The translations under genes and the position numbers were made by a program. Source: Isoetes taiwanensis (Eukaryota; Streptophyta; Lycopodiopsida; Isoetales; Isoetaceae). Taken from it: 64,000 nucleotides of DNA. Shown here in pieces: positions 7,381-63,697 of the stretch. A model generated the notes under the pieces. The model was given only the letters and a program-made list of their open reading frames with translations. It did no database searches and had not been told where the DNA came from. The DNA lies in contig JAJEKV010000003.1 of NCBI GenBank assembly GCA_021234155.1, positions 19,142,386 through 19,206,385 of the forward strand, given 5' to 3'. Each line of letters begins with the position of its first letter. The stretch's first letter is position 1.

Positions 7381-8039
7381 ATACCGGGTCGTGGCATCCC
7401 ACTATTCGGTATTTCAAATTTCCTTGGTTTTGGTTAGCATGGTCTAGTTTTTGCATATGCCCATGTAGTTCCCTATATACATGGTTCCTGCCTAGTCTTG
7501 TTTTGGCATGATAGGTGGGGGTCTTCTATTCTCATTTGCTTATCGGGTTTCTTTCTCGCTATCCCATGTTGTTGTCCGGATGTCTTGCATTTTTATGCTT
7601 TCCTCCTCTCTTTCTGTGATCCCAAAACTATATGCGTCAAAGCATTACGTTTTTCTTTTCGGTTTTGTCTTTTTTAGGTCTCGCATTTTTTTTTTCCTTA
7701 CCTCTTTTTGTCTCACTTGTCTTAGTTTTTTCTGATTGTCATCTCTCCTCCATTTGTTCATCTCATCTTTTGACTCGTCGTTGTCCTTTCCGCCTTGTTA
7801 GTGTCCGGTTGCTTTCGGCCTTTTATTCTTGTTTGTTTTGATTCGCGGGGTTCCCCACAGGTTTTCTTATTTCTACGTGTTTACATATAATTTCTTAGCC
7901 CTTATACATATAATTTCTTAGCCCCTATGGTTATCTCATATTCTAATTTATCTGGGTTACACAGATTTTTCCAAGCCACTCCTATGGTCATCTTGCTCTT
8001 TTAACCTCGTTTGCTCCTATGATCGAGTTTCTTTTTGCT

Positions 8040-11000: not shown

Positions 11001-11240
11001 TTCCTTTGTTCACGATCCCTTTATCTTCCCTTTATTTTATCCTTATGTTTAGTTCGTCTCTTTGGTCCTTTACTCGTAATTTTCCTTCTTTCACTTATCC
11101 TTTCAAAACGTCTTGGTCCTTCTTGAAACGTCTTGGCGCCTGGACTCCTTTGTTTGTTCGCCTCACCTCATGGCTCGCCATAGTTCTTTGCCTTCTTAGT
11201 GCCTCTTTTATCATAGCCTTTGTTCTGATTCGCTTTGCCT
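8040..11240 (+). repeat. Nested tandem duplications in T-rich DNA
   Basis: Blocks in 8040-9140 (CATCACGTGCTC, ATGGTTTACTAGCGCAT, GTAAATCGTCTCTTCTA, GAGGGCCTGTTCTTGC) recur in the same order in 9890-10700, so the unit is about 1.8 kb. The last ~290 bp (10530-10815) is duplicated again at 10830-11110 with high identity. The strand is pyrimidine-rich throughout. Confidence 0.7.
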
Positions 11241-11394
11241 AGCCTTTTTTGTTTCCCAGTTGCCTGTTCTATTCTGGTCATCTTTCTTTGCGCTTTCCTC
11301 ATTTTGGTTGCTCTGCCCTTTCCCCTAGTTATCTTCTTTTAGCCCTTTTGAGATAGATTCCTCTTCTATCGGCCAACTTGTCTGTCTCATAGGA

Positions 11395-11456
11395 CCCATC
11401 CTAGGAATGCCACGGTTCTATTGTGACAGCAATAGAACCGACATTCCTTGGATGGG
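11395..11456. repeat. Long imperfect palindrome
   Basis: The arms of about 28 bp start CCCATCCTAGGAATG and end CATTCCTTGGATGGGG, enclosing GGTTCTATTG-TGACAG-CAATAGAACC. Only the inner part is present at the left end of the insertion, which suggests a junction between two inverted element ends or a foldback structure. Confidence 0.75.
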
Positions 11457-11729
11457 GACGTTCTCCTTCACGTCTTCTATTTATTCAACCTCTTGTCTCA
11501 TTTCTAGTCATCGGCGTTCTCTTGAGCTCCCTTTCCTGTTCTCTCTTCTTTGGCTCCTCAAGTTCCCCCCCCGCCCCTCCCTCTTGGTCGATTTTGGTCG
11601 GTTGGTCATCTTTATTTTCTATCTATTTTTCTATATTTTCTGGGTCGCTCGCAGCTTCTGACATCCTACATGTGTCTTTTCTATATTCTTTATAAGTGTA
11701 GATGTGTTTATGTTTCATTTCTTTTTTCG

Positions 11730-12055
11730 GCGTGGCGCTGTAGCCTCCGAAGCAGACTTATTATTCTTTCTTGGGGGCACGGTAGCCTCCGAGTATTTTA
11801 TTTATTCATGTTTTCTCTCGGTGTGGCATTATAGCCTTTGTGTGGCATAATATTTATTATCCATGTTTTCTCTCGGCGTGGCGCTGTTGCCTCCGAGATC
11901 ATATTTATTGTTTTCTCTCGGCGTGGCGCTGTAGCCTCAGAGGTGACACTAATCGATTGTTTTTTTTTCCCCGCGATGATCATTCAGCGCCGACGGTTCC
12001 CGATTGGTGAATTTGTTGTTTCTTTCTCGGCGTGGCCCTGGAGCCTCCGAGTCTT
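11730..12055 (+). repeat. Dispersed CGGCGTGGCGCTGTAGCCTCCGAG-type repeats
   Basis: Six diverged copies of a ~24-bp motif lie at about 11730, 11776, 11819, 11874, 11922 and 12031. Each is preceded by TTTCTCTCGG or similar and is itself roughly palindromic (CTCGG ... CCGAG). Spacing is irregular (40-110 bp). Confidence 0.65.
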
Positions 12056-14904: not shown

Positions 14905-16041
14905 CTATTCCTGGAATCTTCTATATGCCGGGTTGTCTTCCAAGAACTTCTTCATTTGGGCTGTGCCAACTGTTCGCTCCAAGTTTCTAAGAATGTTGGT
15001 GGTCGTACCACCTTGGAGTGCCGTCACCAGGTCTTCGATCCTTCTATCTGACGTGTAGGCTATAGTGACGGCCAACCTGCCATGTCGTCTGTACGGGACT
15101 GCGAAGTCGAAGATGCTCAAAGCTATTGTCCTCTTGACCAAGATGACATGGTCAATGTTTGGAGGCATCCGAGCATGCCTTCCAAATCCTGAGCAGGCAA
15201 CCAGCATGAAAACTCCTTCTTCTCCCCGTGGGCTAAACTGGCGGTGTACGATCGCTATCCTTCCGTCGGTGGGGAGTGGCAGGTAAAATCTGAGGGCTTT
15301 GTCGTGTCCTCCCTCCGTTGTTTCTTCTTTGGTTCTGATTCCAGCCCTGTGTCTTTCAGAGTATTCATCTATCGGTACTGTTATCATTTCTCCGTCGTCG
15401 CCGAACATGGACTTGGAAGAGATCAAGTTGATGCCGTCTCTTTCTAATCCGACTGGCGCTACTGCAGAGGTGCTGGGCAGGAGTGCACTTATTGTTTTTT
15501 CTCTGATGCCCATCCGCTCTTGGAGTACTATAAATTCCTCCTCCGAGGGTAGCTCCTGTTGCATCATCATCTGTCGGATGCTGGTGTAAGCTTCGATGTC
15601 CGATGATGACTGGCCAGAGTACATGTGGGCCTCCCTGATGCTGATGGGAAAGTCTTGAGTCTCCCGGTCGATGAAGTCATCGAGGTCGGGCTACTGGCAT
15701 AGAAGGTGGAGGAGTTCGTCCACCCTGTAACCTCTGTCTCTGCGCTCCGGAAGGTTCTTTATATCATGGAGCGTCAGGTACTCCTCTTCTTGGATAATAA
15801 CCGGGGTTAGACTGGTGATACCTAACCCAAGTGGAGGAGCTGTCCTTGTTACTCTCAATCCTTCTTCGAAGCTTGGAAGATCTTCTGCTTGCTGCCTTTC
15901 TTGTATGGGGTCGACTTCGATGATGTCTTCCACGTCGTAACCATGTCCTTCCTCTGCCTCTTCCTCCCGTTCTGACTCTTCATACTCCAGGAGCATTTGC
16001 TCTTCTGCTCCTGCTTCTGTGGCTGTGGGTTCAATCTCCAA
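14905..16041 (-). pseudogene. E1 ORF3/ORF4: unrecognised acidic protein
   Basis: Two open stretches (16041-15691 and 15624-14905) share one frame and are separated only by one TAG after LLHLLCQ and 22 further open codons. The N-terminal third is very acidic (EYEESEREEEAEEGHGYD). The C-terminal part has predicted beta-strand character (KALRFYLPLPTDGRIAIVHR, DHVILVKRTIALSIFDFAVP) and ends KKFLEDNPAYRRFQE. I recognise no family. A link to ORF2 upstream needs one frame change; I found no convincing intron. Its position between leader and gag suggests an accessory retroelement protein. Confidence 0.5.
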
Positions 16042-17526: not shown

Positions 17527-18345
17527 TCGACCTGCTACAGCATATAAGATCTCCTCTAAAAAAGGCAAAGGGTAGCAATCCTTGATGGTGACTTTGTTGA
17601 GATCTCGATAGTCAATGCAAATTCTTAAAGCACCACTTTTTTTTTCCACAGGAACAATGCAAGATACCCATTCTGGATTAATAATTTCAATAATAACACC
17701 TGCATCTAACATCTTATCCAATTCATCTTTGATTAGTCCCATCAGTGAAGCATTAATTCTTCTTAATTTTTGAAAGACAGGTTTACAACCTTCCTTGATC
17801 TTAATTTCAAATTGGCATACCTCAGTTTTGATACCTGATAGCTCTGAATAATCCCAAGCAAATACATCTTTTCTTTCTTCAAAAAACATTTGTATGCTCT
17901 CTTTGTTTTGATATTCAATCAAATCTCCAACAAACAGGGTTCTACTAATCTTACCATTTTTTGTGATTACAATCTCTTCAGTATCTTTTTTCTCTGATGC
18001 ATCAATGGTCAAAATAGGACAGAGTGCTTTTACTTTATTGTCATCAAGGTCATCTTCAGGAATAGCTCCCTCAGTTAAATGTGACATGAGGGTCTCCCTA
18101 CACAAGGCATCAGCTTCAAAAAAAATTTCTCTTGGAATATGAGTGATCTTCCATGAAGCAAAACTTGAGAGTACTCCCATTGCCTGATTCTTCAAGAGCT
18201 CCATATCTGCATTCGTTTTTTGATAATCTCCTGAAACTTGTCTGCAGATTAATTGTGAATCACCATAAATGTGGATATTGGCAATATCCATAGCTTTGGC
18301 TTCCTGAAGACCTGCAATCAAAGCTTTATATTCTGCTACATTAGA
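17521..18345 (-). pseudogene. T1 archaeal-type RNase H (C-terminal part) and RT N-terminal half
   Basis: The frame starts with SNVAEYKALIAGL (catalytic Glu), then IYGDSQLICRQ and EIFFEADALCR (catalytic Asps) of the archaeal/plant RNase H fold. After ~80 residues of linker (FAWDYSELSGI) it enters RT with WVSCIVPVEKKSGALRICID and YPLPFLEEILYAVAG. Coding ends at the inversion breakpoint; the RT palm with YLDD is at 29002. This RNase H lies before RT, separate from the usual RNase H after RT at 29661. Confidence 0.85.
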
Positions 18346-19418
18346 TTGACTTGAGGGAAGATTCTTCCTACTTTAGCTAAGAGTTTGTGAGAAGAGTCTT
18401 TCAAAATAGCAGCAGATGATGCAACATTTAGTTTTTTAGAAATACCTCCATCAAACCATAAGAACCCTGTTGGTCCTTGTCTGCTGGGAAGTGCACATTC
18501 CATAATAAGAGGAACCATTTCATATTTTCTTGGTCTTGTATTTTTTATCCTGTAGGATCCCAAAGGCTCTTCAATTAGCATTTCCTTAATAAAGTTTACC
18601 TCTTCTTTGGAGTCATATGAGCCATCTTGGTTGTAAATTGTAGCAGTTTGAGAGCCATTGGAGATGGTACATCTCCCTTGAGACCAGACTGGCCTAGCAT
18701 CCACAGTGGCTAACCATCTTCTCCCTAAAAGTAGGTCATAAATGTCAGATTCATCTCCTATATCCTCAAAAGCCACTACAATAAAGTTAGCAGCTACAGT
18801 TATGCCTTCTGTATTAACAGGCACTTTAGTCACCACACCAATAGGAGTAATCTTAGCATTATAAAAAGATCTTAATAATATAGAAGCTTTCTTGTCCACC
18901 TCGAAACCACACTTCTTCATAATGTGATATGGCATGATGTTTAGGGGGGATCCCCCATCAAGTAACACATTTGAAAAGGTATAACCCCCTAAAGCAGCTG
19001 AACGTGTAAATGCCCCAGGGTCTTCTTCATTCTGCGCTAGAACAAGATTAGTGGCATCAGTGAAATTTACACAAGCATTGAATTGCTCACCACCAGTTTG
19101 CTGGAGTACTCTTTTTCTATAGCTGGGTGCAATCTTTAGCAAGGTGAAGAGATCCACACTTACTTTGGAATTTTTGAGTAAAACATCAACTTCATCAAGG
19201 TCTTGGTCTTTCTTACCATATTTTTGCTGTGGAGGTGGAGCTATCATTTGAGCAGGTGATTCCATTATAAGTGGTGAAGACCTGGCAGTGGGATGTCTAC
19301 TTGATTCAGCATGTACATTGGCTTCATTCATTCTTCTAGTTTGCACTACCATAACTTCTTCAGCTTTGGGAACTTCTGTAGCCTGAATAAACCTTATAGA
19401 AGTACTTGGTTCAGCCAA
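18336..19418 (-). pseudogene. T1 protease and start of archaeal-type RNase H
   Basis: A 360-codon stretch. The aspartic protease site is NVLLDGGSPLNIMP, with Asp-Gly-Gly in the catalytic position, followed by YDLLLGRRWLATV. The end carries GFLWFDGGISKK (first catalytic Asp of RNase H) and continues to KLLAKVGRIFPQ. There a frameshift leads into the next frame at 18345. The N-terminal ~100 residues are a linker from gag. Confidence 0.85.
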
Positions 19419-20004
19419 ATCTCACAGGAAGCTTAGGTTCTCGTCTCTTTTCTTGTTCCTGCTTAGCAAAGTATTCCTTAACAACACACCTAATATCAGT
19501 ATGACCAACTTCTTTACAGAAAGAACAAATAGGACATTCCTTTCCAAAGTGGCCTTTTCTATTGCATTTAGAACACACTTGCCAATAGCAAATTTCTGAT
19601 GGATGAGTATTCCTATTGCAATGAATACATTCAGGGTAAGTTTTACCTGTTCTTGCAGCCTTGAGTTCAACCAATTGTTTGGTTAGTTCTGCTAAAGCTT
19701 CAGTAACCTTAGATAGGTCTGACGTGACCTCTGCAACTTGAGAATTAGCTTCCTCCTCTTTAGATTTTTTCTTTTCTTTCTGTATGGCATAAACTGGAAT
19801 GGAAGGGTGATGATCATAATGTGCATCAGTAGCATTAGGGTAAAAAGGATCATGGCTGTGGTGAGAAACATGGTGCTTGTCAGGCAAAGTAGAGAGCATC
19901 TGAGTCAGGTCAGTGGTTTTGGCAAAAACTTTGTATATAGAATCAAATCCTTCAGCAGCTTGGATCTTGAGCAACTTCCTTTGGATATCTGGTCTTCTTT
20001 CCAA
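19411..20004 (-). pseudogene. T1 gag C-terminal part with zinc knuckles
   Basis: It contains a coiled-coil-like TEALAELTKQLVELKAA segment. After CIHCNRNTHPSEIC follow two adjacent knuckle-like motifs, CSKCNRKGHFGKEC and CSFCKEVGHTDIRC, as in the nucleocapsid part of Tat gag. It overlaps the protease frame by 8 bp. Confidence 0.85.
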
Positions 20005-20580: not shown

Positions 20581-22346
20581 AATGTTGACCCTAAACCTGG
20601 CTTAAAGATCAACCACAAGGAACCAACTTGAGTCTACACCCAAATTGAGGTTAGAACCTCCAGATCACTTAAGGTGATTAGTCTATGCAAGATAAATCTA
20701 AGGAGAAGTCCAAGAAACTCAAATTTCATACCTTTCCCATTTCTAGGAAATGGGACCTTGACTCAAACGGCTGTAGTGTCAAGCAATGGATCGATTTTTC
20801 GAGTCAACCACTTCAGACTTGCTCAAAAAAGTTGTAGGAATTCAATGCTGAAGTTTCTGACCAAGTCATATTATAAATTTGAAAGATATTCAATCCCAAA
20901 GTGGGGTCAAAAATTGGTCAATAGAGGTCAACTATGGAAAAAAGTGATCAGAAAATAAGATTTGAAGTTACAGAGCGTATTTTTGGGAATTTCCAAAGCA
21001 CATGTGCTCTAATGGTGATGAGAAAGAGGGGCATGAGGTCAAATTTCCATTTGAAACTACAGAAGCACTTTTTGTGGCTGGATTTGGCAAAATACAGTAA
21101 AAAAATGATCAGACCCGAATGCTAATTTTTCTAACTTGAACTAGAAGTGGTATTTTTTGATGTTTTCAAAGCATTTAGCTCACAGTTGCTCTAAGGATAG
21201 ATGGCAAGTAGGCCAATGGTGCTTTGGAACACTCAGGGATTTTCTGTAAAATATTTTGAATCAAGAATTGCTAAGAAATGTATCAAAGAGGGATTTGACA
21301 ACTTGGCAGTCAATTTATATTGATATGAAGGTAAATACATCATAATAACAATGGATAATGATACTTCAAAGTTTCAGATACTGGAAAATAATCATCATAA
21401 GTCATAAGATAATTTTTGAAAGTAGTATCAACTAGATCTTTGCAAATCCAGTCGAGGAATGCTCAGGGACTTCAAGAATCTTTCAGGTCATGCTCAGCAT
21501 TGATCAATGTCGGATTTGAGTGCGCCTGGGCCTTCGAAAATGTCGTGATTGTGTTTCCCCTTTATATAGTTTCAAATTTCGATTCCAGTGATTTTAGGTA
21601 ATAAATTTAGGCTTAATCTGTTGCTTAGGTTCCGGAATCCAAAAATAGAGTGGTCTCAGAGAGAATGGAGCGCGGGAAGGCATGATTCGAGCCGGATTTC
21701 CAGTTCTAGGGTTCTTCAGCTGTATTTTCGCATAATTTTCGCGATACGGTTTTGTATTTTTGAAGGAATATGCCCTGTATATGCCGTATTCGATCATTTT
21801 TAAAAACTTGGCCAATGGTTTAAAGGCTTTTGTTCATAGGATATTTAAAAGAAGTTATAACCTTTTGACCATAGGGAAGATTGCCCACATGTGTAAAGGA
21901 ATATGGAATCTTTAGGGCATCTTTTGACAAGGTTTGGAATATACCAATGAGGGCATAATGGAATAGGAATAAGGCAAAATAAATCATAAAGGGCTAGTAG
22001 GGAGACAAAGGTGAAAATGCAAAAGAGGGGAATAATAACTTTGCAATAGGGGCTTGAATGTCTTTTTGAATAACCAATGTAGGGATATTTGGAGGAAATG
22101 GCAAGGACTTGGGCAAAATGACAAGGTGGGCATGGCAAAGAGATGAGCAAAGGACATGAAAACAATATTGGGCCAAAGGTGCAAAAATGGAGGTAGTGGG
22201 GTGAAACAAAGGCCAAAATTAGAAACTATACACCATGGGGTCTTCCAAACTCTTAACTTCCAATCTTCAAAAGATGTCTTCCAAACTTCATAACCCAGAT
22301 TCTTCTAGAGCATATTCTTAACTAAGCATTTGATCCCAAATACAAT

Positions 22347-23176
22347 GTTGTCACATACGTTGCATACCGTACGGGTACCATATATTTTTAAAGTTTTTTT
22401 TAAGTTTTTTATTTTTGGTTTTTAAAATCTTAGAATACGTTTTTATAACATTAAAAACGTTAAAAACATTGTAAACGTTAAAAACGTAAAAAAACGTAAA
22501 AAAAAACTTTAAAAACCCCAAATTGCCCCCTTGAAACAGATTATATAACATTTTTTTAATACCAGCACCATATTTGGGTTCCAATCAAATCACAAAAATG
22601 TGTATTCAATTCAAAGGTTTAACTTAATAATATAAGCATTAACATAAAGGTTTAGTATATTATCATACTAGAGGTAGATAGAAGAGAAATGAATAGAAGT
22701 AAAAAAGAATTATTTGAAGCAGCTATACCTTTGGAACGGTTTTGGGTCACTTCCTGCTTCTATTTATCACTTATGGCCGTCGGATCTTCAGAAGCAATAC
22801 AAAAAAATGAATCGAAATAAAATTAGTTGTAAAAGAAGAAGAATGGAAAAGTTACCTTGGTCGACTTGTCTTGGATTGGCGCAAGAACTGTTTCCTGGTT
22901 TGCATGGTGGAGTAAAAACCTTTCTTTCATTGAGTAAAAAACCAAAACCCTGGTTCTATACGCATTCGGCATGTTTCTACATGCATGCGGCTGCTCATAG
23001 TTCCAAAATCTTGTTTGCTAGACCAGAAAATCTAAATGAAAGGCATTCGAGGCATTAGCAATGGTTTTTTTTTTTTACATTTTTTTATAACCCCCGATGG
23101 TTGCAAACGTCTAGAAAACGTAGGGGTTTTTTAAGAAGTACTCTATGGTTAAAAACGGGGTTTTTTAACAATACTG
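22347..23176. mobile_element. Unclassified 830-bp insertion in the T1 LTR
   Basis: Absent from the sister LTR (empty site at about 32298-32310). Flanked by CCCAAATACAAT and CCCAAATATAAT, a 12-bp duplication with one mismatch. The interior has AAAACGTTAAAAACGT-like runs near the left end and a poly-T stretch at 23060. No terminal inverted repeat or protein recognised; the long duplication would suit a non-LTR element. Confidence 0.65.
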
Positions 23177-23265
23177 CCCAAATATAATACCTCTTGTGAA
23201 CTTTTGGCTTGAGCATTTGTTGACCTAGAAGGTAAGCATCTTTTGACCTTCACACCAATGTTGAC

Positions 23266-23731
23266 TGTAACGAGCCCATGGTAGACCGCTCGAGTATTTG
23301 AACCTTGAATGTGCCTGTGGGGCGTTCCCGAGACACCGGCATAAATGGGTAGAAACGACTACTCATAAACGTCTAGACGTTTTTGCCCAGTTGGTTAAGG
23401 GCATGTCGGTTAGGAACGTTACAGTTGGTATCAGAGCAGGTCTCGAGTTCGAGTCTCCATGGGTGCCTACTATATGCATGGGTAATTTGCAAAGACTTGG
23501 TAATCATTGTGACATGGTATGCATGGTATAACCTTGGATGCTCGAGGACGAGCATAGTTTTAGTGGGAGAGACAATAACGGGCCCATGGTAGACCGCTCG
23601 AGTATTTGAACCTTGAATGTGCCTGTGGGGCGTTCCCGAGACACCGGCATAAATGGGTAGAAATGACTACTCATAAACGTCTAGACGTTTTTGCCCAGTT
23701 GGTTAAGGGCATGTCGGTTAGGAACGTTACA
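23266..23731 (+). mobile_element. TRIM: miniature LTR retrotransposon (466 bp)
   Basis: Two 158-bp LTRs (23266-23423 and 23574-23731; TGTAACG ... CGTTACA) flank a 150-bp interior. The interior has a perfect initiator-Met primer site TGGTATCAGAGC at 23426-23437 and a purine tract GTGGGAGAGAC just before the second LTR. The TSD is TTGAC at 23261-23265 and 23732-23736. The sister T1 LTR at about 32219-32225 has the single uninterrupted TTGAC site. No coding capacity, so it was mobilised in trans. Confidence 0.95.
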
Positions 23732-23839
23732 TTGACTACCAAGCTCTTCCAATCTTTGACCTAGTCTTCAGAAATGACTTAACCTGACTTGAATGCATAG
23801 AACACAATTAGCATGTTGCCCTTTGGGGGCAACACCCTT

Positions 23840-24068
23840 CGAGGTGACTCTGATTACATTTGATGTCATGTGCTTATGTTTACTCACGCTTCCGCAGCTA
23901 GGACGGTCCCGAGGGAAGATGGGACAAATGACCCATCTATTCTTCCTCATCGATCCATTGTCAAAGGATTGGTGTCAGGTGGATGGCCCCTATCAGCTTG
24001 ACTGCCAGGGGGATGAACTCCGCCTTCCAATACGATGGGAGCATCGTAGAAGAAGTAGGAGACGTCAT
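23840..24068 (+). repeat. E1 5' LTR, terminal piece (moved by the inversion)
   Basis: Reverse-complement of the LTR start: it runs from the T1 target site in the CACCTCGAAGGG region, through GCTGCGGAAGCG, to GACGTCATA next to the primer site at 24071. The rest of this LTR is 34068-35200. Confidence 0.8.
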
Positions 24069-29704: not shown

Positions 29705-30011
29705 ACATACCATAGTATTTGCAAGTAAACAATGGTCTGCCCTTGAAGAAAGATATACCAGAATAGAAAAGAGTGCTGCTGCACTCATGTTCCTTATCAA
29801 TAGGCAAGGACACTTGCTTCTGAAGAGTCAAGTCCAAGTTTACATGAAGCAAAATCCAATGGGTTTACTGTTTGGCAAGGCAACCAGTAAGCCAAAGATC
29901 CAGAGATGGGCTTGTAAGTTGCAAAGTTATGATATTTCTGTAAAAGAGTTGCATTTGGTGCGAAGTCCTAGCCTTTATTTGCCTTATATATTTTTTGACC
30001 ATGAAGATTAG
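29661..30011 (+). pseudogene. T1 RNase H (retroviral type, after RT)
   Basis: LAILQDKHTIVFASKQWSAL, ERYTRIEKSAAALMFLINR, then SKPKIQRWACKLQSYDISVK, the usual RT-linked RNase H blocks. The element thus encoded two RNase H domains, one on each side of RT. Confidence 0.75.
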
Positions 30012-31355
30012 TTGGATGCTACTGACACTTCACTTGCAGTAGCTCATATAGAGGTAACTCCAGAAGATCAAGCTAAGGGGGGATGGCAACAACCTATTAG
30101 AGACTTTTTACAATATGGGATTATCTTTCCAAGCCTCACTTCAAGCCAAAAAAGGAGACTCAAGGATAAATGCAGACAATTCAAGATGATAAACAATATC
30201 CTGTGCAAAGTCAACCAAGATGGAGTCTTGTTGAGGTGTGTAGATGAAAGTGAGTCTGCTCTAATTATCAGGGAAATGCGTAAAGGTATTTGTGGAGGAC
30301 ATTTTGCTGGTGATATTACAGCAAAAAAGATTCTCAGGTCTGGATACTACTGGCCTACTATTTTTAAAGATTGTTATGAGATTATAAAGACTTGCCATCA
30401 ATGCCAAATCTTTAGCAAAAGAATTTTACTGCCAGCTGCCCTTAATCCCATCATATCTCCAGGGCCTTTTCAGATTTGGGGACTAGATTATATTGGCCCC
30501 ATTAATCCTTCTTCTGCAGGTCAACATCAACATATTATTGTAGCCACAGACTATTTTACAAAGTGGGCAAAAGCTATACCTTTGAGGCAGGCTAATGCTG
30601 CAAGGTTTTTACATGAATATGTTTGTTCCAGGTTTGGTATTCCTTTCCAGTTGCATTCTGATAGGGGTACACCTTTTGTTAATGAAGTTATTGCTAACCT
30701 GTTGGACATTTTGAAGGTCAAGCATACCAAAAGCTCCTCATACTATCCTTAGGGTAATGGACAAGCTGAAGCCACTAACAAAGTGTTGAAAAATATTTTG
30801 CAGAAGACAGTTGAGGTCAACAAGAGGGATTGGCATGTCAAAATAGTGGATGCACTTTGGGCTTATAGAGTCACCATCAAAACAGCTACAAATCATACAC
30901 CTTTCAATTTGGTTTATGGCATAGAGGCAGTTTTACCAGTGGAACTCGAGTTGCCTTCCCTGAGATTGGCTCATAAATTATGCTTACTTTTTGAACATGC
31001 CTTGCAAGAAAGGTTGGATGCCTTGCTGCACCTAGATGAATATAGAATGGAAGCTGACAATACTAATTTACTGAAAAAGGCTAAAGATCTGGCTGCATTC
31101 AAAGCTGCACATAGAATACAGGGTACTTTTAGGAAGGGGGAGCTTGTCCTTAAGTGGAATAAGTCAAAAGAAGACTCAGCTGGCAAGTTTGATAATATTT
31201 GGGAAGGACCCTTTGTGGTGCAGGAATCTGCAGGTACCAATTTATATTGGCTACAAGAGGTTGCCTCAGGAATGTTGTTACCAAATCTTATCAATATCCT
31301 GCATTTGAAAAGGTATTGGGACCAGCATGCTTGCTTGTCCCTCTTTTTGCATTAG
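30012..31355 (+). pseudogene. T1 integrase
   Basis: HHCC zinc domain (GGHFAGDITAKKILRSGYYW ... CHQCQ). DDE core: Asp in WGLDYIGPINP, Asp in QLHSDRGTPFVNEV, Glu in GNGQAEATNKV. One TAG (30750-30752) sits between YYP and GNGQAEA, where a Gln is usual. C-terminal part 30783-31355 has WAYRVTIKTATNHTPFNLVYG and GKFDNIWEGPFVV. No chromodomain, as expected for Tat. Confidence 0.9.
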
Positions 31356-32124
31356 AAAGTTCAAGGATCTATGGTAGGTTTAGAATAGTCAGATCTATTT
31401 GATTTTTGAGCATATTACTTTGATAAGTTAATTTTATGATTGTAGGTTGGGCTGACCTGAGGACAGTATAGGTGATCTCAAGAAAAAGAGTGATTACTAA
31501 TGCTTTACCAAGTGCCATATGCAGGAGCATCCTTTTTTCCATCTTTATTCACCTGCCATAAGTGGTCCTGCTACTCATCTAGACTTCTTACTCCTGTTTT
31601 CATTCCCATAAAAGCACTCTGCAATTCAGCTTCACCACCATATAGCAGAGTTCCAAGGTTTTGAGACTAACTAGTTTGTGTGTTTCCATGACAGGTGCAT
31701 CCTTTCTCCATTTTCATTCATCTGCCATAAGTAGTCCTGCCATCCATTTAAACTCCTTATTCTTGTTTTTCATTCCCAAAAGAAAGCACTCTGCAATTCA
31801 GCTTCACCATCATAGCAGAGTTGCTCTTTAAAGGATCAAGGAGGCACACATTCTTTTGTTTTGGCGAGATCTCAACACTTGCACATTTACCTCACCCTCA
31901 TACACTCCACCCCCATCATCACCCTATCATATTCTCACTCATTCTCATCCTGTTTTCACTCATCATATTCCACTCACATCCTCCCACCACCATATTCACT
32001 CTTATTCCATCAATACTTGCAATTACGCCCTCTCTCTACCATGATTCTTACTTAGGCATCTTGGTACAAAGTTGAAGACCCTCTATGGCTGAGGGGACCA
32101 GCCATTCTTTTGTTTTGGCAAGAT
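31356..32124 (+). other. T1 3' untranslated region with tandem duplication
   Basis: Two diverged ~135-bp copies (about 31520-31655 and 31690-31825) share TGCCATAAGT, GTCCTGC, and ACTCTGCAATTCAGCTTCACCA. A GATGGCTGAGGGGACC stretch at 32083 may be the purine tract. No ORF of note. Confidence 0.6.
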
Positions 32125-54570: not shown

Positions 54571-54910
54571 TTATCCAAGAAAAGGTTCAAAAAGGGGGCA
54601 CTGATACGGCGGCAGTGGCGGCAGCCAAGAACAAGGTTAGGGGAAAGCAAGGTCTTCTCCAGCGGCTATGGCGGACGGGTTCAAGGCGATGGATACAAAC
54701 AAACAAAATGGGAAAGGAAATAACCGTCATTTTTTTTTAAGAACAAATTTTTTTCAATTTTGTTTTTTAAATAAAAAAATTTTATATGGCAGAAATATGC
54801 CTGTATTTGTATACGTGTTTTTATATGGAGGGGCGTGATAGAGAAAATACGTGTTTATTTTCAAATTCTGAGTCGATGTTTTGTCGATCACGCCCCTTTG
54901 ACTTCTAACA

Positions 54911-54985
54911 AAGTTGCGTATTAAACGGGAGCAAATCATTGAAACGAGAGCGAAAGGAATATTCCTTAAAGATTCCCCTTTTTTT
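54911..54985 (+). repeat. Left terminal inverted repeat of the ParB-methyltransferase transposon
   Basis: Matches the reverse complement of 63311-63368 in blocks (ATTAAACGGGAG, AAAGATTCCC, T-run). Confidence 0.6.
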
Positions 54986-55249
54986 TTTACAAAAAGGGGG
55001 TAAAACGAGGTTTAAAAAAAAAAAGATGCATGAAATTCTATTTTGACCCCCCCAAAAGTGACTAATTTTTTTGTGCAACGAAAGAATTGACTGTTTGAAA
55101 GTGTCATTTTTCTTAGCAAATAGAATGTTCTTGAAGTATATTTTACGTGAGAAACCCTAATTTCAGAGGATAAAATATTTAACAAAAAATTGAAGTTAGT
55201 CCGTAACTGAAACTGTAGTATTCTCAAAATTTGAAGATACAATCTTCAT

Positions 55250-58200
55250 ATTCACAACAAAATTCTGAGTTTTTTTTCTAAGACTCGGTTATGTGCAAAA
55301 GTGTGAGGAGTGATGAAGGAGGGATCCAAGGCGTCATCATGTTCATTTATACCATCCTCATCACCTTCACTTTTTTCCTTTGTCACTAGAGGAAGTGCTT
55401 GAGTTATCTTCCTCATCACTATCAACAGATGGTGTAGCATTGCCACCACCTTCTTCATCCCTTCTTCTTCGTAATTACAAGCTTTTTTTAAGCAAATTGA
55501 TAGTCCTCTGGCGTGAGGCGATTGTCGATTTCAATTTAAAATCATAGCACAATATAGTCCGTCATTAAGGATCAGCTCATCCCTACAACCCACCTTCTTG
55601 GACTTTCTTTTTTTTCCTTGGCTTCTCATTTCTAACTCATATCTACCTTCAAAAGCATTTTTTACGATCGTGTTGCAAGCCAATGAATCTTGAGTTTAGT
55701 GACTAAGCCTTCCTCCTTGGCGGTGTCAAGCACTTTTGCTATCGAAAGGTCGACCTTTGTCATCCTCCTCGGTTGGAAGAGCAATTAGCATACCCTTGCA
55801 AATTTACGTGATATTACCTTGAGGTTCATTCCTGCGTCTTGGTCCAGAGATACATGACTCGATCCTCATCTTCTTCTAATGCAGGTGCTAATGTAGCCTT
55901 TGCTTGGACCTGCTTAGTCTTTGGGGTTGATGGAAGGTGTTAGGCCATCGAAATGGTTCTTGCAACTGTCTTAGAGCTATATTTTTTCACAACAATTTTA
56001 CGTCGAGAAAGAAATTACTCCACCACATCCGATCTTCTTCTAAGAAGTACTTAAAAAGCTCGAGGAAATTCCATTTTCAATGGCTTTTAAGGATGACTCG
56101 GGGTACTTTTCTTACGCTTGGACTCCTTAGGATTTTTGAGAGGAAGTTGTTCAAAGACGTTCTATGAAGGAAGTGTGCGGAATATATTTAAGGAAGCGTA
56201 ATCCCTCTTGTGGACTCGGTCCTTAGTTGTGGTATACTTTTTCCCCCAGAAGAAACTCGGCCATCCTTCAAGTAGAACTTGATGTGATGTTGAAAGGTGA
56301 GATCATTCAACTTGTTCCACGGCTTGTTCTCTGTGCGAGCGTTGAGAGAAAACAAACTCTCTCGAAATCAGCAGTCTCTTTAAGAAGATCGATCCTTTGG
56401 AGTGGGAGTGTAAGAATCTTCAATAATTGAACTAATGTAGGAAGGGAGAAAGCCTTCTTCCTTCTAAAGGCGCCTGAAAATCTCTTTGAACATCCGGTCA
56501 ATCGATCATGAGTGTGGCCTACAAGTAAAAACCGAGCTTCACTTTTCTAAAGATCCCTAGCTCCACTAACATAGCACGGTATGCAAAGAGTGTTTGATTC
56601 TTGTTCTCCCTTGTAGTATTGTCAAGTTGCGAGGTAAAAACCGGTGGTAATTGCTCTTGCTTTCGCATACGGGACCTGGTTAAGAATTGTAATTGTGAGG
56701 TTGGTCACCATGCAAGTTTGGATATGTCAAAATACTTTGCACTTTAGACTTCCTTTGAAGACCATAGCTCCTACAAGGTGGACCTTAACAAAACATTCCT
56801 CGGCACATCTTTAGGAATGTTCAAGAAATGTGGTAGAGTAGTTTTTTTTTGGTCCATTCCATCAATCTACAGAGACATATATTGCGTGCGGACGTTCAAG
56901 AGCTTTTTACGTGTTTGGCAAGCTTTCTTTCTCTGGCTTTGCTTGTTGTTCACGATGTGCGGCAAGGTTACATTTGCACAATATCGTAGAAGAAATAAGG
57001 TCAAAGCATTTTTTTTAAAACAAGTGAGAGTTTGAAGAACATGAGCTTACTTCTTTCGACTTACGTCTTTTTGCGGTTTCTCTTTGACTTTTTAATTACG
57101 CACACCTTGAGCAAAGCGGACATTACGTGTCTCCTCGGAATTTTCACTAAACCGAATTCACTTTTCCACAATCGGTGAAGTGTGAGTAAGAGATGTCTTT
57201 GAAGTTGAGTGCAAGTCTCTTTGTACTCATTAAAACATCTTTTTGGTGATGTTATCGGTTAAATGATACATGTTTTTGTTAGGACTTCTCACATGTTTCT
57301 CTAAAATATTTCTCCATCCATGACACGGCAAAGACAAGGGCATGCATGGTTACAACTCTTCTTGGTCCACAATGATCATCAATTCTTTGGATTTTTGTCC
57401 GATCTTTTGTGTATTCTAGACATTACGGTAGTCCCTAAGCGGTGGACAACCATAAAGCATTCGGCAAACTTCTTGGCCGGTTAATGTAGTGCAAGAAGGT
57501 GTTGCTTGGGTCTGGCCTTACATGATAGGCCAAGTAGGCATTACGGTCAGCCAATGTCATTGAGCGTAGTTGTCTCTAATTGCTCGTAATTTAGACATGT
57601 TAAATTTGTTGATGCAACCCAATGAGCAGCATTTACTTCTTAAAAGTCTTCTCATTTTATGCTCGTCCATAAGGTTTCTTCTTCTTCTGAGGAGGAGCAT
57701 GCTCTCACACCATAATCCACCTTAAATTTTTGGTGGGTGGCTAGAAGAACATGTAATCTCGTTGCACCGTTGGTGTCTTCATCTTACGAAGAGAGTTCTA
57801 CTCGGGGGTGACCTCCTACGCCCTTAGTGGTGTGCTTGTAGAGGAGAACAAACCACGTGAAGTCTGTACCGAAAAAGGCGGAGGTGCGGTGTTGAATGAA
57901 GGAGATGGGCCAGCATATGATGTGCCGGCCGAAAGTTGTTGTAAGCGTCTTCACGGGGAGTTCGATCGAACATCTCTTTATAGCGGTGAAATTCTGCAAA
58001 CCCATGTGTCACCACGTTTGTGTGAAGAGGAGTAGATCTTTGCAGGGGTCGTCTTCATTTGTAGTGAAATCGTGGTGGGAGAAAGCGATGGAGAATCTCT
58101 GATCTTGAGCGTCGGTTTGTATTCTGGCATGTGTAAGTGAAGATGGAGAAACAACAAGCGGCGGAGGTAGTCTGTTCGAAAAATTTTTTGAGGTCGAGCC

Positions 58201-58485
58201 ATTGTAGTGTCGGGGGGATGGAACAAATGGTGGTGGAAGATTGCTCACGTGCAACGGTGAGGGTTGGAAAGGTGGTGGCAGCCGGTTTCCTATTGGACTT
58301 GGAGAGGGTTGGAAAGGTGGTGGCGGTCTACTAGTTCTTGGACTCGGAGTTTCTTCTAGAAGTAACAAAGACCTTGTCGAGGTAGGTGTTGAAGAAGCAT
58401 CTCCGTCTTGTGTTCCATCGAAGTAGAGGTACTTGGGCAAACAAATGGTGGTGGAAGTTTGTTCTGAAGCGGTTAACCATTTCAA
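55250..58485 (-). pseudogene. DDE-type transposase, DUF7869-like (decayed)
   Basis: Minus strand, many stops and frame changes. N terminus (58485-58010): proline-rich repeats (RPPPPFQPSPSPIGNRLPPP, LPPPFVPSP). Middle: a DTC..C-like zinc site followed by RETAKRRKS and AAHREQQAKPEKE (about 57120-56930). Catalytic region: IDGMDQKKTTLPHFLN (56868-56820), SQLDNTTRENKNQTL (56635-56585) and VGHTHD then IDRMFKEIFRRL (56520-56462). These three blocks in this order are what I know from eukaryotic DUF7869 transposase-like proteins. An acidic tail lies at 55250-55458. It would mobilise this unit. Confidence 0.55.
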
Positions 58486-58882
58486 ACAAGCAAAAAAAAT
58501 TGTGGGCTTGTTACTAACTCACAAGTCGATTGGACTAATGCTATTCGAGAATACAAATGCTATTACGGAATAGTATTACGTAATGCGACATTTCTTTGTG
58601 TGTGTGCAAGAATGCTATTCGAATACACTTATCAGTGTTTGGACAAGGCGTATTCCGCATCACATAGAAAAACACAACCGGCGGTTGCCTACCTTTAAAA
58701 AAGGAAAATTCGGCGCCTGGGTTGCGTATTCGCTTTCAGAGATTTAGTCGCCCAGCCCAAGGCGCCTTAGATTAATATATATTTCTTTGTATTCCGATTC
58801 ACATAGCGAAAACAATGGGCGGGGTAAGCATGTAAAAGTACATAATACGTCTTTCTTTGGTTTTCGATTTTTTTTACGTAGG
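58486..58882. other. Divergent intergenic region, left part
   Basis: Contains scattered single GTATTCGAATAC-like half or whole palindromes (58555-58790: CTATTCGAATACACT, GCGTATTCCGC, GCGTATTCGC) leading into the array. A TATTAATATA stretch lies at 58770. Confidence 0.5.
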
Positions 58883-59195
58883 CCAAAGTGTATTCGAATA
58901 CACTTTGCCCATCGGCGAAAGAGCAAAGTGTATGATACGGAATACACTTTGCTCATCGGCGAAGTGCAAAGTGTATTAGGAATACACTTTGCCCTTCGGG
59001 TGAAAAGTAAAGTGTATTAGGAATACATTTTACTCTCGCTGAAAGGGCAAAGTGTATTCGAATACACTTTGCTAAATCTCCCGATAGGCAAAGTGTATTA
59101 GGAATACACTTTGCACTTTCGCCGATGAGCAAAGTGTATTCGAATACACTTTGCTCTTCGTTGATGGGCAAAGTGTATACGGAATACATTTTGCT
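58883..59195. repeat. Palindrome array 1 (eight units, ~40 bp each)
   Basis: Eight tandem units with core CAAAGTGTATT-CG-AATACACTTTG, three of them perfect palindromes of 24-26 bp, the others with AGG, ACGG or GATACGG in the centre. Spacers of 13-17 bp often read CATCGGCGAAAG. The outer arms are as conserved as the centre. It lies between the divergent transposase and ParB-methyltransferase genes. Confidence 0.92.
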
Positions 59196-59429
59196 TGTAG
59201 TTTTGAGAAGCTTGCTTTTTTTACTAAAATCACACACTTTTTAGGCTGCATTGAGACAACATTTTATGTTAAAAATTACTCTGTTAAGTCTAATTTAGGT
59301 ACACGAAATTGACTTAGACTGACAACATTTTAGCTTGTTTTCTTGTCTTTTTCTGGCCTTTAGGGCATAAGATTAGCAAATGTTATTACGGAATACAAAT
59401 TTCTTTTGCATTTTCTGTCTTAACATGGT

Positions 59430-60837
59430 TGTTTTAAAGCGTTTGATGGCGGGGAAGAAGGAAGCAAGAGGGCATCAAAGAAATCTCATAAGCCTAAAGC
59501 GTCCACACCCACAAAAGCACGCCCGACGACGGACGAACACGCTATTTACGAAAACTTTCAAAGCGCGGTGGTTCGTAACGGGGGGCAGATGGAAAATCTG
59601 ACCTGCTTGGCGTTTTTATGCGTCTGTAAAAGTCTTTGGTAACAAAAATACGCCGACTCCATGTTTGTTAACCTTGGGACAATAAAAGATGTCTCAGGGT
59701 TCTTGGGACAAGGAGGTCAAGCAGGGGAGGCTATCCTTCAAGACCTCCCAAGGCTTCATTGTTGTGGACCTTGCATTCTTTAAAATTGTCGGTGTGCAAC
59801 CACCGGCCTTTGTACAAATTTTTTCACACTACCGGCTAAAAGCGAAGCTTTGTGTTCATTAATTAAGCAGGTTTTTCCGGCCTGGCGAGGACTTTCTGTC
59901 GGTGAGTCAGAGCAATCGGATGGAGAAAGATCGCAATCACCACCTTCTCCTAGTTACGCTGGTTCTTGGGGAGGTCATCGGATAAAGGTTTTGAGGAAGA
60001 AGAGGAGGAAGAACCCCCTTGTGCCAAAGAAACTTAGCACGCCAAGAGAGACCATAGCTGCTAAAGAACCAAAGAAAAGGAAAAACACATGACTTGAAAT
60101 CATAGAAGTCCCCGAGGAACCTAAGAAGAAGAATGGAAAGGGTAAAGCACCGGTGTTGCTATTAAAGAAAAAAAAGTTGATAAAACATCTGAAAAAATGG
60201 AAGAGATTAACACGCACAAGTTTGTGCAAGGTGTCATTATTTGCCGATCACTTCAATGAAGCTTCCTCCAAAAAATGAAGCTGGTGAAAGGCCACTTCAG
60301 GTTCGCAAAATTTATGCCCGATCACTTGAGGAACACGAAAAAGAGAATAAGGAGCAATCAAATGCTCATGTGGCCCCAATAGTTGTCCTTGTTGGCGGGG
60401 GGACGGTGCACAACCCCCGGGAGTATGGCGGAGGAAAAAATCGACACCTACACTCACTACGTCTTGGGAGGGAATCATAGCTTCAAGGCAAGAAGGCAAC
60501 TTTACAAAGAAAAGAAGAACCGAGGAGGGTACCTCTCCGTCCTCTGCTTGGCCATCTTTGTGGTCTTCTGGATGAAGAAGCAAAAATCGTTGCCAACACC
60601 CACAATGCTGACAACGAGTACAAACTAAAGATGAGCTTTGTCGACAAGATCCGGTTTATGCACAGGGAGTGCGTAATTTTCAAGGAAAATGCGGTGAGGA
60701 CTGAAGAAGCCAGCGTTTTCCTTGGAGCTTAAGGGGCGTGTGCCATTGAATCTGCTGAAATATGAGCGAGGCCAACAAAAGGCGATCTCTTATTCCCCAT
60801 GACAAGCTGGTTTCAGTTAGCTTTTAGAGATGGCAAG
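59430..60837 (+). pseudogene. ParB/Srx-like domain part of a ParB-DNA methyltransferase gene
   Basis: N-terminal part (59430-60240) is basic and disordered (SKRASKKSHKPKASTPTKAR; SPPSPSYAGSWGGHRIKVLR; KEPKKRKN). ParB-like core: RPLQVRKIYARSLEEHEKEN and APIVVLV (60286-60393), then YTHYVLGGNHSFKARRQLY (60447-60506), YLSVLCLAIFV, DEEAKIVANTHNADNEYKLK and MSFVDKIRFMHREC (60571-60670). The GGNHS..A block occupies the place of the G-[NH]-R..A motif of ParB/Srx domains. Three frame changes. A splice donor CAAG|GTAAGC is at 60838. Confidence 0.55.
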
Positions 60838-61132
60838 GTAAGCACAAAATGTATTCGAATAGCAAACCAACTATTTGGCGTGAAATCTGCTTGAGCAGAT
60901 TTGGGAACTCCAGGACCAGATATTCACAATGTTCGAGCGAGGGGAGTTAAAGAGCAAGGGCAAGGAGACAGCCAAGAAAAAAACCTCGGACGTGCCCAAA
61001 AAAGAAATGACCATTACCGATGCGGAGGGAAATGCGGGGCTTCTCCGAGCCACGAGAGATTTTGGAAAGGCTTCTCCAAAAAGTTGTTGACAAGGAGTTT
61101 AGCCTAGAAGAAATGTCAAAGGAATTGCACAA

Positions 61133-61554
61133 GTAAGATCTACGCCACAAACTTTACTCTTTAGGCGTTAGAGTCCCAAAAACATCGTGGTAGATAGTGT
61201 ATTCGAATACACATACCTTTCTTCACTTGGGCCTTTGTGTATTCGGAATACACAATCTTTGTTCTAGAGACAAGCAATGTGTATTCGGAATACACAATGG
61301 ACATGTAAAGGAAGCCATGTGTGATACGGAATACACATGTCCTCTTCTAAAAAAAGTATTGTGTATTCGAATACACATTGCTTTCTTCGAGGAGAAGCAA
61401 TGTGTATTCGGAATACACAATGCATTTTGTTTCGAGGTAACATCACCCGGTTAACGGTTTGTATTCGAATACATTTAGCTTGACTTTTATTTGTTTTTCT
61501 TCTTCTTTGCCTTGTTTCTTACTTTTTTACTCATTGTTTCCTTAACGTCTTGCA
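61133..61554 (+). other. Intron of the methyltransferase gene with palindrome array 2
   Basis: Donor CACAA|GTAAGATC, acceptor TTTCCTTAACGTCTTGCAG|CC with a T-rich stretch before it. It separates KELHK from the next exon. Confidence 0.65.
61198..61473. repeat. Palindrome array 2 (seven units)
   Basis: Units at about 61198, 61236, 61276, 61316, 61360, 61399 and 61458 with core GTGTATTCGAATACAC or GTGTATTCGGAATACAC and outer arms CAAT/ATTG (GCAATGTGTATT...). Same core as array 1 but a different outer arm. Confidence 0.92.
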
Positions 61555-62992
61555 GCCAAAAGAGCGTCATAACATGTCAAACATGTTTGATGGAGCAGAC
61601 TAAGCGTAGAGACATGGGAAAGGTGCAAGGAACTCTACCACTGTAGCCAGCCGCCGACGGCCGAATTGTGCAATATGCACCAAATTTTGAGGGCTGGGTA
61701 AGTACTCTCAACATTACTTCGCCTTTGCACACCACGATCTCCTTACAATTGTTGTCATGTTTTTCTCGAGCAAAAAGAAAAACAAAGACCTTCAGGGGCT
61801 TCATGCATTTGGTTAGAACGACACGGGGAAGAGAGGTCGTTAAATTTGAAAAGAAGAACTGTTGAGTTAGAACCATCCGATTACGAGAATTCGGCATGTT
61901 TGATCAAAACAATTTATATTCAATCATTCATGGTGATTGCACGAACCTAGTCGGAACGGTTAAGCCACGAGGACTTCACTTTGGTTATTCTTTGATCTTC
62001 CCTACGGGTTTAAGCTTAAAGGCGGCCGAGATATGGCGACCAGCCCTTCAAATTTTCAGAGTTTAATGCTTTTATTGATGGAATCAAGCGGATCACAACG
62101 GCTAAACATTGGCGTTTAGTTACTTTCCATTCGAGCATGCGATGCGGCTTGGTAGAATCAGCTTTCAAAAACCACTTTGGTTCTCCGGTTCGGCGGGGAT
62201 ATGAAAACCTTGTATGCGGTAAGTCTTATTCGAATCTGAGTTACTTTTCTCTTTGATTCGTAGTGTATTAGGAATAGTATTTCTATACGGTTTTTGAAGT
62301 GTGTTCTTGTTTTTGCTAAGTAAACATCACTTTAAATGTTTTACTAGGTACAAAGCGAACATCAACTACCATGGTGGAGGACCAAGGTTGCTTAGCAAGG
62401 TAGAGTACCTTCATGTAGCTTATTGGAGTTTTGATGGGAAGAGGACCATGGAACACTTCAACACTTTGCCGCTGTCAAAACTTCTCAAGCGTCCTTGAGT
62501 TTCCAGTGATTATTCTGAGAAAGTGCGGGACCCAAGCGCACAAAGGCGGGATTGTGAATCACTACTAGAAACCACAAAAGCTCATCAACCATCTCACGGA
62601 CATGTTCTCGGCGTCGAGACCGGGTGCTTGATGCTTTCTCACGGTTCTGGTACTACTATCGCATGTGCACTTAAGAAGGGCCGCAAGCTGTAGCCGTGGA
62701 TATTGATAAGGATCTTTGTTAATTTTGTGAAGATGAGGCTGGCTGCCTTACCTACTTTACGGATGAACATCAAGAGCTAGGGGCCAAGTCTTCATCGATT
62801 ATGCTAAACTAACATCCTCGGAGATCTGACCTCCATTCTCCGACTCACTAGGCGATGAGGCAACCTTTGCGAGCTTAAAGAAGTAGCTTTAGCTACCATT
62901 CCAGGAAGGACAAGGAGGATACAAAACTCAAGTCTCCAGCAAAGGGCGAGATAGAAACGAAGGGCGAGATGGCGAGAGAGCAGCAAAAAGAA

Positions 62993-63310
62993 TGAGGAGG
63001 ACTATGATGTAGATCTTTTGACTCTTGCATATTAAAATTATCATTATTTATTACAATGAATCTTCAATATTGATGTACAACAATTTATTAAAAACATAGT
63101 ACTTTTTTTTCCTTTCTATTCTGGTGCTTGTTTTTTGTAATGCTTTCAGTCTCTTCAAGTCTATGCCTAAATTTCGCTATTTTTATGATTTCTGTTTCAT
63201 AAGTACAAAGTTTTCGTCTAATAATGGGCCAAAATGGCATGAAAAAAAATGCAAACCTCTAGAAATTCTTAACAACTATCAAAAAAGGCTTATTTTAGAA
63301 ACTTGGTGTT
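62993..63310. other. Transposon sequence after the methyltransferase gene
   Basis: AT-rich, with ATTAAAATTA-type possible polyadenylation context at 63028. No other feature seen. Confidence 0.4.
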
Positions 63311-63368
63311 TTTTTAAAGGGAATCTTTGAAACGGGAGTGATGCAACACTCCCGTTTAATTTGCAATC
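63311..63368 (-). repeat. Right terminal inverted repeat of the ParB-methyltransferase transposon
   Basis: It also contains its own hairpin AAACGGGAGTG-ATGCAA-CACTCCCGTTT (63329-63357). Confidence 0.6.
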
Positions 63369-63697
63369 GTGTTTTCTGCGCCCATTTGATGTTGTTTTGA
63401 TGCCGGCTACCTATGCCCCTTAGTCAATTCGACTGTCCCCGACATGTTGTTGCAAGAATCACCCTCCATCCGAGTTACCTAAAAAACTTTATGGCCCTTG
63501 GAAACAAGAGACCTCCTTCTTTTCAAGAACTTAACATACCTAATCCTAATAACTCAAACCTTAATCCCTAACTAGCTTAGTCCTCTCATGAATAGGCCAA
63601 TACATGTATAGTTTAACTTAAGTTGAAGTCCTCTACAACTAAACAATCTAACGAGTTAGACTATTTCCAGTGCAATGATTTGGTCCACCAAAATCAT
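63369..63697 (-). other. E2 leader remnant
   Basis: Between the transposon and the primer site. It lacks the CTCACAG/CTGTGAG hairpin pair of E1 and element A, either because the transposon displaced it or because E2 differs. Confidence 0.45.

Follow-up and report, generated by a model that had tools for sequence, protein, structure and literature searches.

What was a bacterial-type DNA methylase gene doing next to a presumed transposase gene in a plant genome? The question arises from a 64-kb stretch of Isoetes taiwanensis DNA (assembly GCA_021234155.1, contig JAJEKV010000003.1, positions 19,142,386 to 19,206,385 of the forward strand), which we call the window and whose own coordinates are used throughout. 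At about 54907-63373, the window contains a decayed DNA transposon of ~8.5 kb in which one pair of terminal repeats encloses two divergent genes, a DUF7869 gene on the minus strand and a methylase gene on the plus strand. Two arrays of one palindrome, GTGTATT-N2-4-AATACAC, lie between the genes and in the second predicted intron of the methylase gene. The element is dead, and we see an even chance that in its intact ancestors the methylase, or a DNA-binding part joined to it, served as an epigenetic factor directed to specific sequences. All of the evidence comes from one broken copy within the window.

An earlier interpretation of the locus from its letters alone (the sequence-only reading) had recognized transposase blocks on the minus strand. 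The motifs are indeed present, with DGMDQ at 56849-56863, QLDNTTRENKN at 56597-56629 and GHTHD at 56505-56519. We compared six single-frame translations with Pfam, writing stops as X and picking no frames. On the minus strand, two frames of three matched DUF7869 (PF25273) significantly, at 1.1e-8 (35.3 bits) and 1.5e-13 (51.2 bits) against a curated cut-off of 26. On a read-through in which the frames were joined by eye, the match reached 4e-27 and 95.5 bits. The broken gene has predicted limits of 55200-58490. DUF7869 is its sole significant match, and its product was presumably a DDE-type transposase. A limited search found no paper on DUF7869, which does not establish that the family is absent from print.

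The remains of the second gene occupy a predicted 59450-62720 on the plus strand, as judged from reading frames, splice borders read from the sequence, Pfam and hhalign. Borders and frames together predict four GT-AG introns, at 60838-60898, 61133-61555, 61698-61795 and 62219-62347. Here the sequence-only reading had claimed methylase motifs in beta-class order, and this claim also held. The motif IV region (61923-62008), located by hhalign and motif position, consists of IIHGDC (61923-61940) and DLPYG (61994-62008). Motif I, which binds S-adenosylmethionine (SAM), was located by N6_N4_Mtase and a frameshift-aware scan at 62597-62713 and reads RVLDAFS/GSGTTIACALKKGRK with AVAVDIDKD; within it, RVLDAFS lies at 62621-62641 and GSGTTIAC at 62643-62666. 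Motif IV (DLPYG, from 61994) therefore precedes motif I (LDAFS/GSGTT, 62621-62666). A (D/N/S)PP(Y/F)-like motif IV ahead of an FxGxG-like motif I is the order that defines the beta class.

None of the three raw plus-strand frames gave a methylase match in Pfam. The match to N6_N4_Mtase (PF01555) appears on the read-through, at 3.2e-10 and 40.8 bits against a cut-off of 26.7, and covers only columns 164-216 of 221. Methylases in PHROG match the read-through down to 5e-9, and three adenine-type methylase models in NCBIfam match at 5.8e-6 to 1.3e-4, scores that fall under those models' own cut-offs. Because joining frames by eye is a biased procedure, we also took 21 phage ParB-methylase fusions as the basis of a profile and ran it in a frameshift-aware scan against the two strands of the entire window. 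Its top match was the methylase motif at 62597-62687, scoring 34.4 where the next match scored 26.7. When the read-through was aligned with the phage fusions by hhalign, 194 collinear columns were matched from HGDC to the SAM motif (94.9% probability, E = 4.7e-8). With the full read-through as query, the phage search returned two records of one phage over the 38-residue SAM motif only (E = 4e-3), and the Protein Data Bank (PDB) returned four weak matches, the best at 0.092. Inside the predicted exons, the key methylase motifs switch frame at least five times. The methylase remains are real but the gene is broken, and the predicted enzyme is a bacterial-type beta-class amino-methyltransferase, a class that makes N6-methyladenine (6mA) or N4-methylcytosine (4mC).

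The sequence-only reading had also placed a ParB/Srx-like domain ahead of the methylase motifs. The region in question, 60467-60639 on the plus strand, was delimited by motifs only: GGNHSFKARR (60467-60496), which is present, and HNADNE (60601-60639). All profile tests were negative, but each used a single broken sequence as the query and had little power. The region matched nothing in Pfam, PDB, phage sequences or plasmid sequences at E up to 10, and nothing in NCBIfam at E up to 1. Its hhalign comparison with the phage ParB-methylase fusions was not significant (E = 0.16-0.23), and against 80 Spo0J relatives it scored 16.4, whereas 60 shuffles reached 22.1. We rejected a candidate helix-turn-helix in EQIWELQDQIFTMFERGELK, which hhalign aligns with the corresponding stretch of Spo0J at a score below those of the shuffles. 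A frameshift-aware match to the ParB profile at 60565-60663 (score 25.3) was likewise discarded; four matches in the window outscore it under the full profile and one does so when the ParB part is used by itself, it lies at noise level, and its alignment bypasses the GGNH motif. In viral contigs of IMG/VR, a degenerate ParB pattern that allowed for two of the four codons possible at the first glycine gave no hits, and peptide patterns confirmed no relatives of the methylase, the ParB region or the transposase. As a lead instead of a result, some animal proteins have a similar GGNH...HN...DK layout. The proposed transposon with a methylase beside its presumed transposase keeps its two divergent genes between repeats; its ParB/Srx domain is supported by the reading of motifs but by no profile test.

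The inverted repeats reported at both ends of the element exist, though they are short. Comparison of the 140-bp ends yielded TTGCRWATTAAACGGGAG as the common repeat, with 16 of 18 positions matching, a score equalled by 15 of 4930 random pairs from the window. The left repeat spans 54907-54931 on the plus strand (25 nt, 80%), with the core TTGCGTATTAAACGGGAG at 54914-54931, and the right repeat spans 63349-63373 on the minus strand. If the repeat is taken to start at AACA, an identical TTCT lies immediately outside it on both sides (54903-54906 and 63374-63377). This candidate target site duplication is weak, in that a free-offset match of at least 4 occurs in 13% of 5000 random boundary pairs. 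Within the window, we found no further copy of the element at E = 1e-3, no empty site when searching with the joined flanks, and no Rfam match. Two additional structures lie near the ends: a short inverted repeat, GGGGCGTGAT...ATCACGCCCC, at 54829-54897, immediately outside the left end, and an inner hairpin, AAACGGGAGTG...CACTCCCGTTT, at the right end (63330-63357), of which the left end carries only part.

A tandem repeat search located the palindrome arrays at 58884-59195 and 61236-61423, both with a period of ~41 bp. Counted by sites, array 1 (58888-59189) has eight, with centers 39.5-43 bp apart, and lies in the intergenic region (predicted limits 58490-59450, from the frames), presumably a two-way promoter for the divergent genes. 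Array 2 (61197-61418), in predicted intron 2, has six sites with centers 40.5-42 bp apart, and an extra site follows at 61459-61474. The half-sites are exactly AATACAC in 23 of 28 cases. Between the arrays, identity is 93% over the 14-base core, a value somewhat inflated by the choice of sites on their core match, but falls to 47% in the five flanking bases on each side and to 34% in the next five (48 pairs). The corresponding values are 90%, 83% and 44% within array 1 (28 pairs) and 95%, 47% and 41% within array 2 (15 pairs). A core and a period that are kept while the rest has drifted would be expected from a dimeric protein binding phased sites.

Strong sites are confined to the element, as far as the 64-kb window extends. 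All 11 sites matching at least 13 of 14 core positions lie inside it. At a threshold of 11 of 14 there are 28 entries inside, some of them one site counted at two spacings, and 13 outside. The inside entries fall in the intergenic region and the predicted methylase introns, apart from one weak site (11 of 14) in the transposase gene; the predicted methylase exons have none at this threshold. Single or partial sites occur in predicted introns 1 and 4 and are absent from predicted intron 3. The exact 10-mer TATTCGAATA occurs at eight places in the window, all within the element. A search of IMG/VR viral contigs for the palindrome array found none.

The composition of the element also sets it apart. 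CAG/CTG is halved, with 99 occurrences against a first-order Markov mean of 231 and a minimum of 189 in 300 simulations. No other of the 32 trinucleotide pairs is changed as much once the arrays are taken out; CCG is not depleted, and coding and non-coding parts are affected alike. CpG is kept, at an observed/expected ratio (o/e) of 0.83 vs 0.52 elsewhere in the window, and 0 of 186 upstream segments of equal length reach 0.83. The plant CHG methylase prefers CAG and CTG. The depletion may reflect CHG methylation, avoidance of CHG sites or the composition of another host. Simple C-to-T decay is not supported as the cause, as its products show no excess (CAA/TTG, 1.06 vs 1.06 in the rest of the window; TAG/CTA, 1.01 vs 0.98). 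Segmentation by CAG/CTG alone on a 50-base grid returned 54701-63650 as the best single segment, with 54901-63650 nearly equal. This segment is close to the span of the element and therefore supports a single unit across both genes. Taken together, the palindromes and the CAG/CTG depletion argue that the two genes form one unit, which probably moved as one. Elsewhere, CpG is also fairly high at 8001-12000 and 22001-24000, which sets these two stretches apart from most of the window.

Given that the second gene encodes an amino-methyltransferase, targeted marking of the element would be the most likely mechanism. In the intact ancestor, a protein, perhaps the methylase's own, would have bound the 16-18 bp palindromes, which recur every ~41 bp, or four helical turns, in the promoter common to both genes and in the methylase introns. 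The bound methylase would then have placed an amino-methyl mark on the element. This mark may have kept the promoter open against host silencing by cytosine methylation or, alternatively, may have let the transposase recognize its own copies. The sequence-only reading had supposed that the methylase acted on the transposon's own DNA, and this now appears more plausible than before, because the strong palindrome sites are confined to the element's intergenic region and predicted introns.

Several observations weigh against this proposal. It rests on a single copy whose terminal repeats are short and whose target site duplication is weak, and the ParB-like reading has no profile behind it. Choosing sites by their core inflates core identity, and the flanks within array 1 are 83% alike too. 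The CAG/CTG depletion is neither unique to the element nor sharply bounded on its right: the 627 bp beyond that end are also depleted (9 occurrences vs 17.8 expected), and weaker depletion is seen at 8001-12000 (Markov ratio 0.53) and 22001-24000 (0.59). Finally, the arrays may serve the transposase or a host factor.

The transposase version of this last objection is the strongest competitor, and we regard it as possible but distinctly less probable than targeted marking. The arrays would be bound by the transposase, or by its DNA-binding part, to regulate the promoter or to assemble a transposition complex, and the methylase would be a passenger or have a general role. In favor of this, array 1 sits between both genes, and repeated motifs are bound by the transposases of other plant elements, such as TnpA of Spm. 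However, the arrays are not near the element ends, the transposase gene has just its one weak site, and array 2 and the single sites are in predicted methylase introns.

It is improbable, in our view, that the arrays are passive palindromic minisatellites or RNA hairpins (a splicing aid, or a source or decoy of small RNAs) with no link to the methylase. Their folding is very strong (z = -13.1 for array 2 as RNA; z = -23.4 for array 1 as single-stranded DNA), which would suit hairpins, although palindromes must fold in this way, and slippage can spread tandem arrays. Slippage alone should also keep the spacers, whereas here the flanks have diverged between arrays that still have the 14-base core and the 41-bp period in common; single sites, moreover, occur outside the arrays. 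Least probable of all is that the methylase and DUF7869 genes became neighbors by chance, as two elements or as a host gene beside a transposon remnant: the single copy and the short terminal repeats would permit it, but the divergent genes lie within one repeat pair, one palindrome family spans the promoter and the predicted methylase introns, and one composition domain covers both genes.

Open frames of copia and gypsy type and a DUF4283 frame surround the element. We take these frames to be of plant character, and they make a plant origin of the transposon plausible. Some of the surrounding DNA is almost free of CpG, namely 18001-20000 (o/e 0.08) and 30001-32000 (o/e 0.04), the latter containing a retroviral-type integrase frame at 30012-30749. 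On the minus strand at 14905-15690, a 261-codon open frame adjoins a Ty3-type gag frame; at E = 0.01 it matched nothing in Pfam.

Several kinds of transposon with epigenetic enzymes or factors of their own (TET/JBP, SET, VANC and DNA methyltransferases, DNMTs) are already known, and we compared the element with them using parts of the published accounts. The closest in layout is VANC of the Arabidopsis VANDAL (MuDR) elements, an element protein that binds short motifs and removes silencing; its motifs form tandem repeats in the non-coding parts of VANDAL elements (PMC5735166), and the palindromes here are likewise tandem, non-coding and, within the window, specific to the element. In contrast to our element, VANC is described as counteracting silencing through a loss of DNA methylation, and not as a methylase, its motif (YAGTATTAY) is non-palindromic, and VANDAL belongs to another transposon superfamily (PMC5735166). 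DNA transposons with epigenetic enzymes include TET/JBP in 11 lineages and SET in oomycete elements (PMC12730594). Fungal TET/JBP transposons resemble the Isoetes element in carrying a DNA-modifying enzyme beside the transposase, thought to help them escape silencing, but the enzyme is a dioxygenase acting on 5-methylcytosine (5mC) and not an amino-methyltransferase, the transposase superfamilies are others, and the parts of that paper used here do not mention palindrome arrays (PMC12730594).

Methylases have been found in mobile elements as well: C5 DNMTs in dinoflagellate and charophyte retrotransposons, Dam-like N6A methylases in DIRS elements, and a DNMT encoded by DNA transposons in marine viruses (PMC5890265). 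These too are transposable elements whose DNA methylase could mark their own copies, but the setting is retrotransposon or viral, and the enzymes are C5 or Dam-type where the source states it (PMC5890265). N4CMT of bdelloid rotifers is a bacterial amino-methyltransferase at work in a eukaryote (PMC8885841); in contrast to the methylase described here it belongs to the host, has a chromodomain fused to it and helps to silence transposons (PMC8885841). The phage ParB-methylase fusions share the proposed domain order, and their methylase part aligns over the 194 columns, whereas the ParB part has no significant alignment. Literature matches for ParB, transposable elements and adenine methyltransferase together concern, by title, a bacterial plasmid and phage; the search was limited and does not establish that such a system is absent from print.

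Against this background, we suggest, tentatively and with less confidence than targeted marking in general, a system outside 5mC: a palindrome-binding amino-methyltransferase encoded by the element and parS-like phased arrays in its promoter and introns, with 6mA or 4mC marks that would evade CG/CHG silencing, in an element that shed CAG/CTG. If this is true, a plant cut-and-paste element would have had a different kind of tool in an amino-methyltransferase paired with its own phased palindrome arrays, one that relies on a mark little used by the host and serves self-recognition or anti-silencing. The locus would then offer a concrete place to test for element-derived 6mA or 4mC in plants and a natural sequence-specific module for DNA marking.

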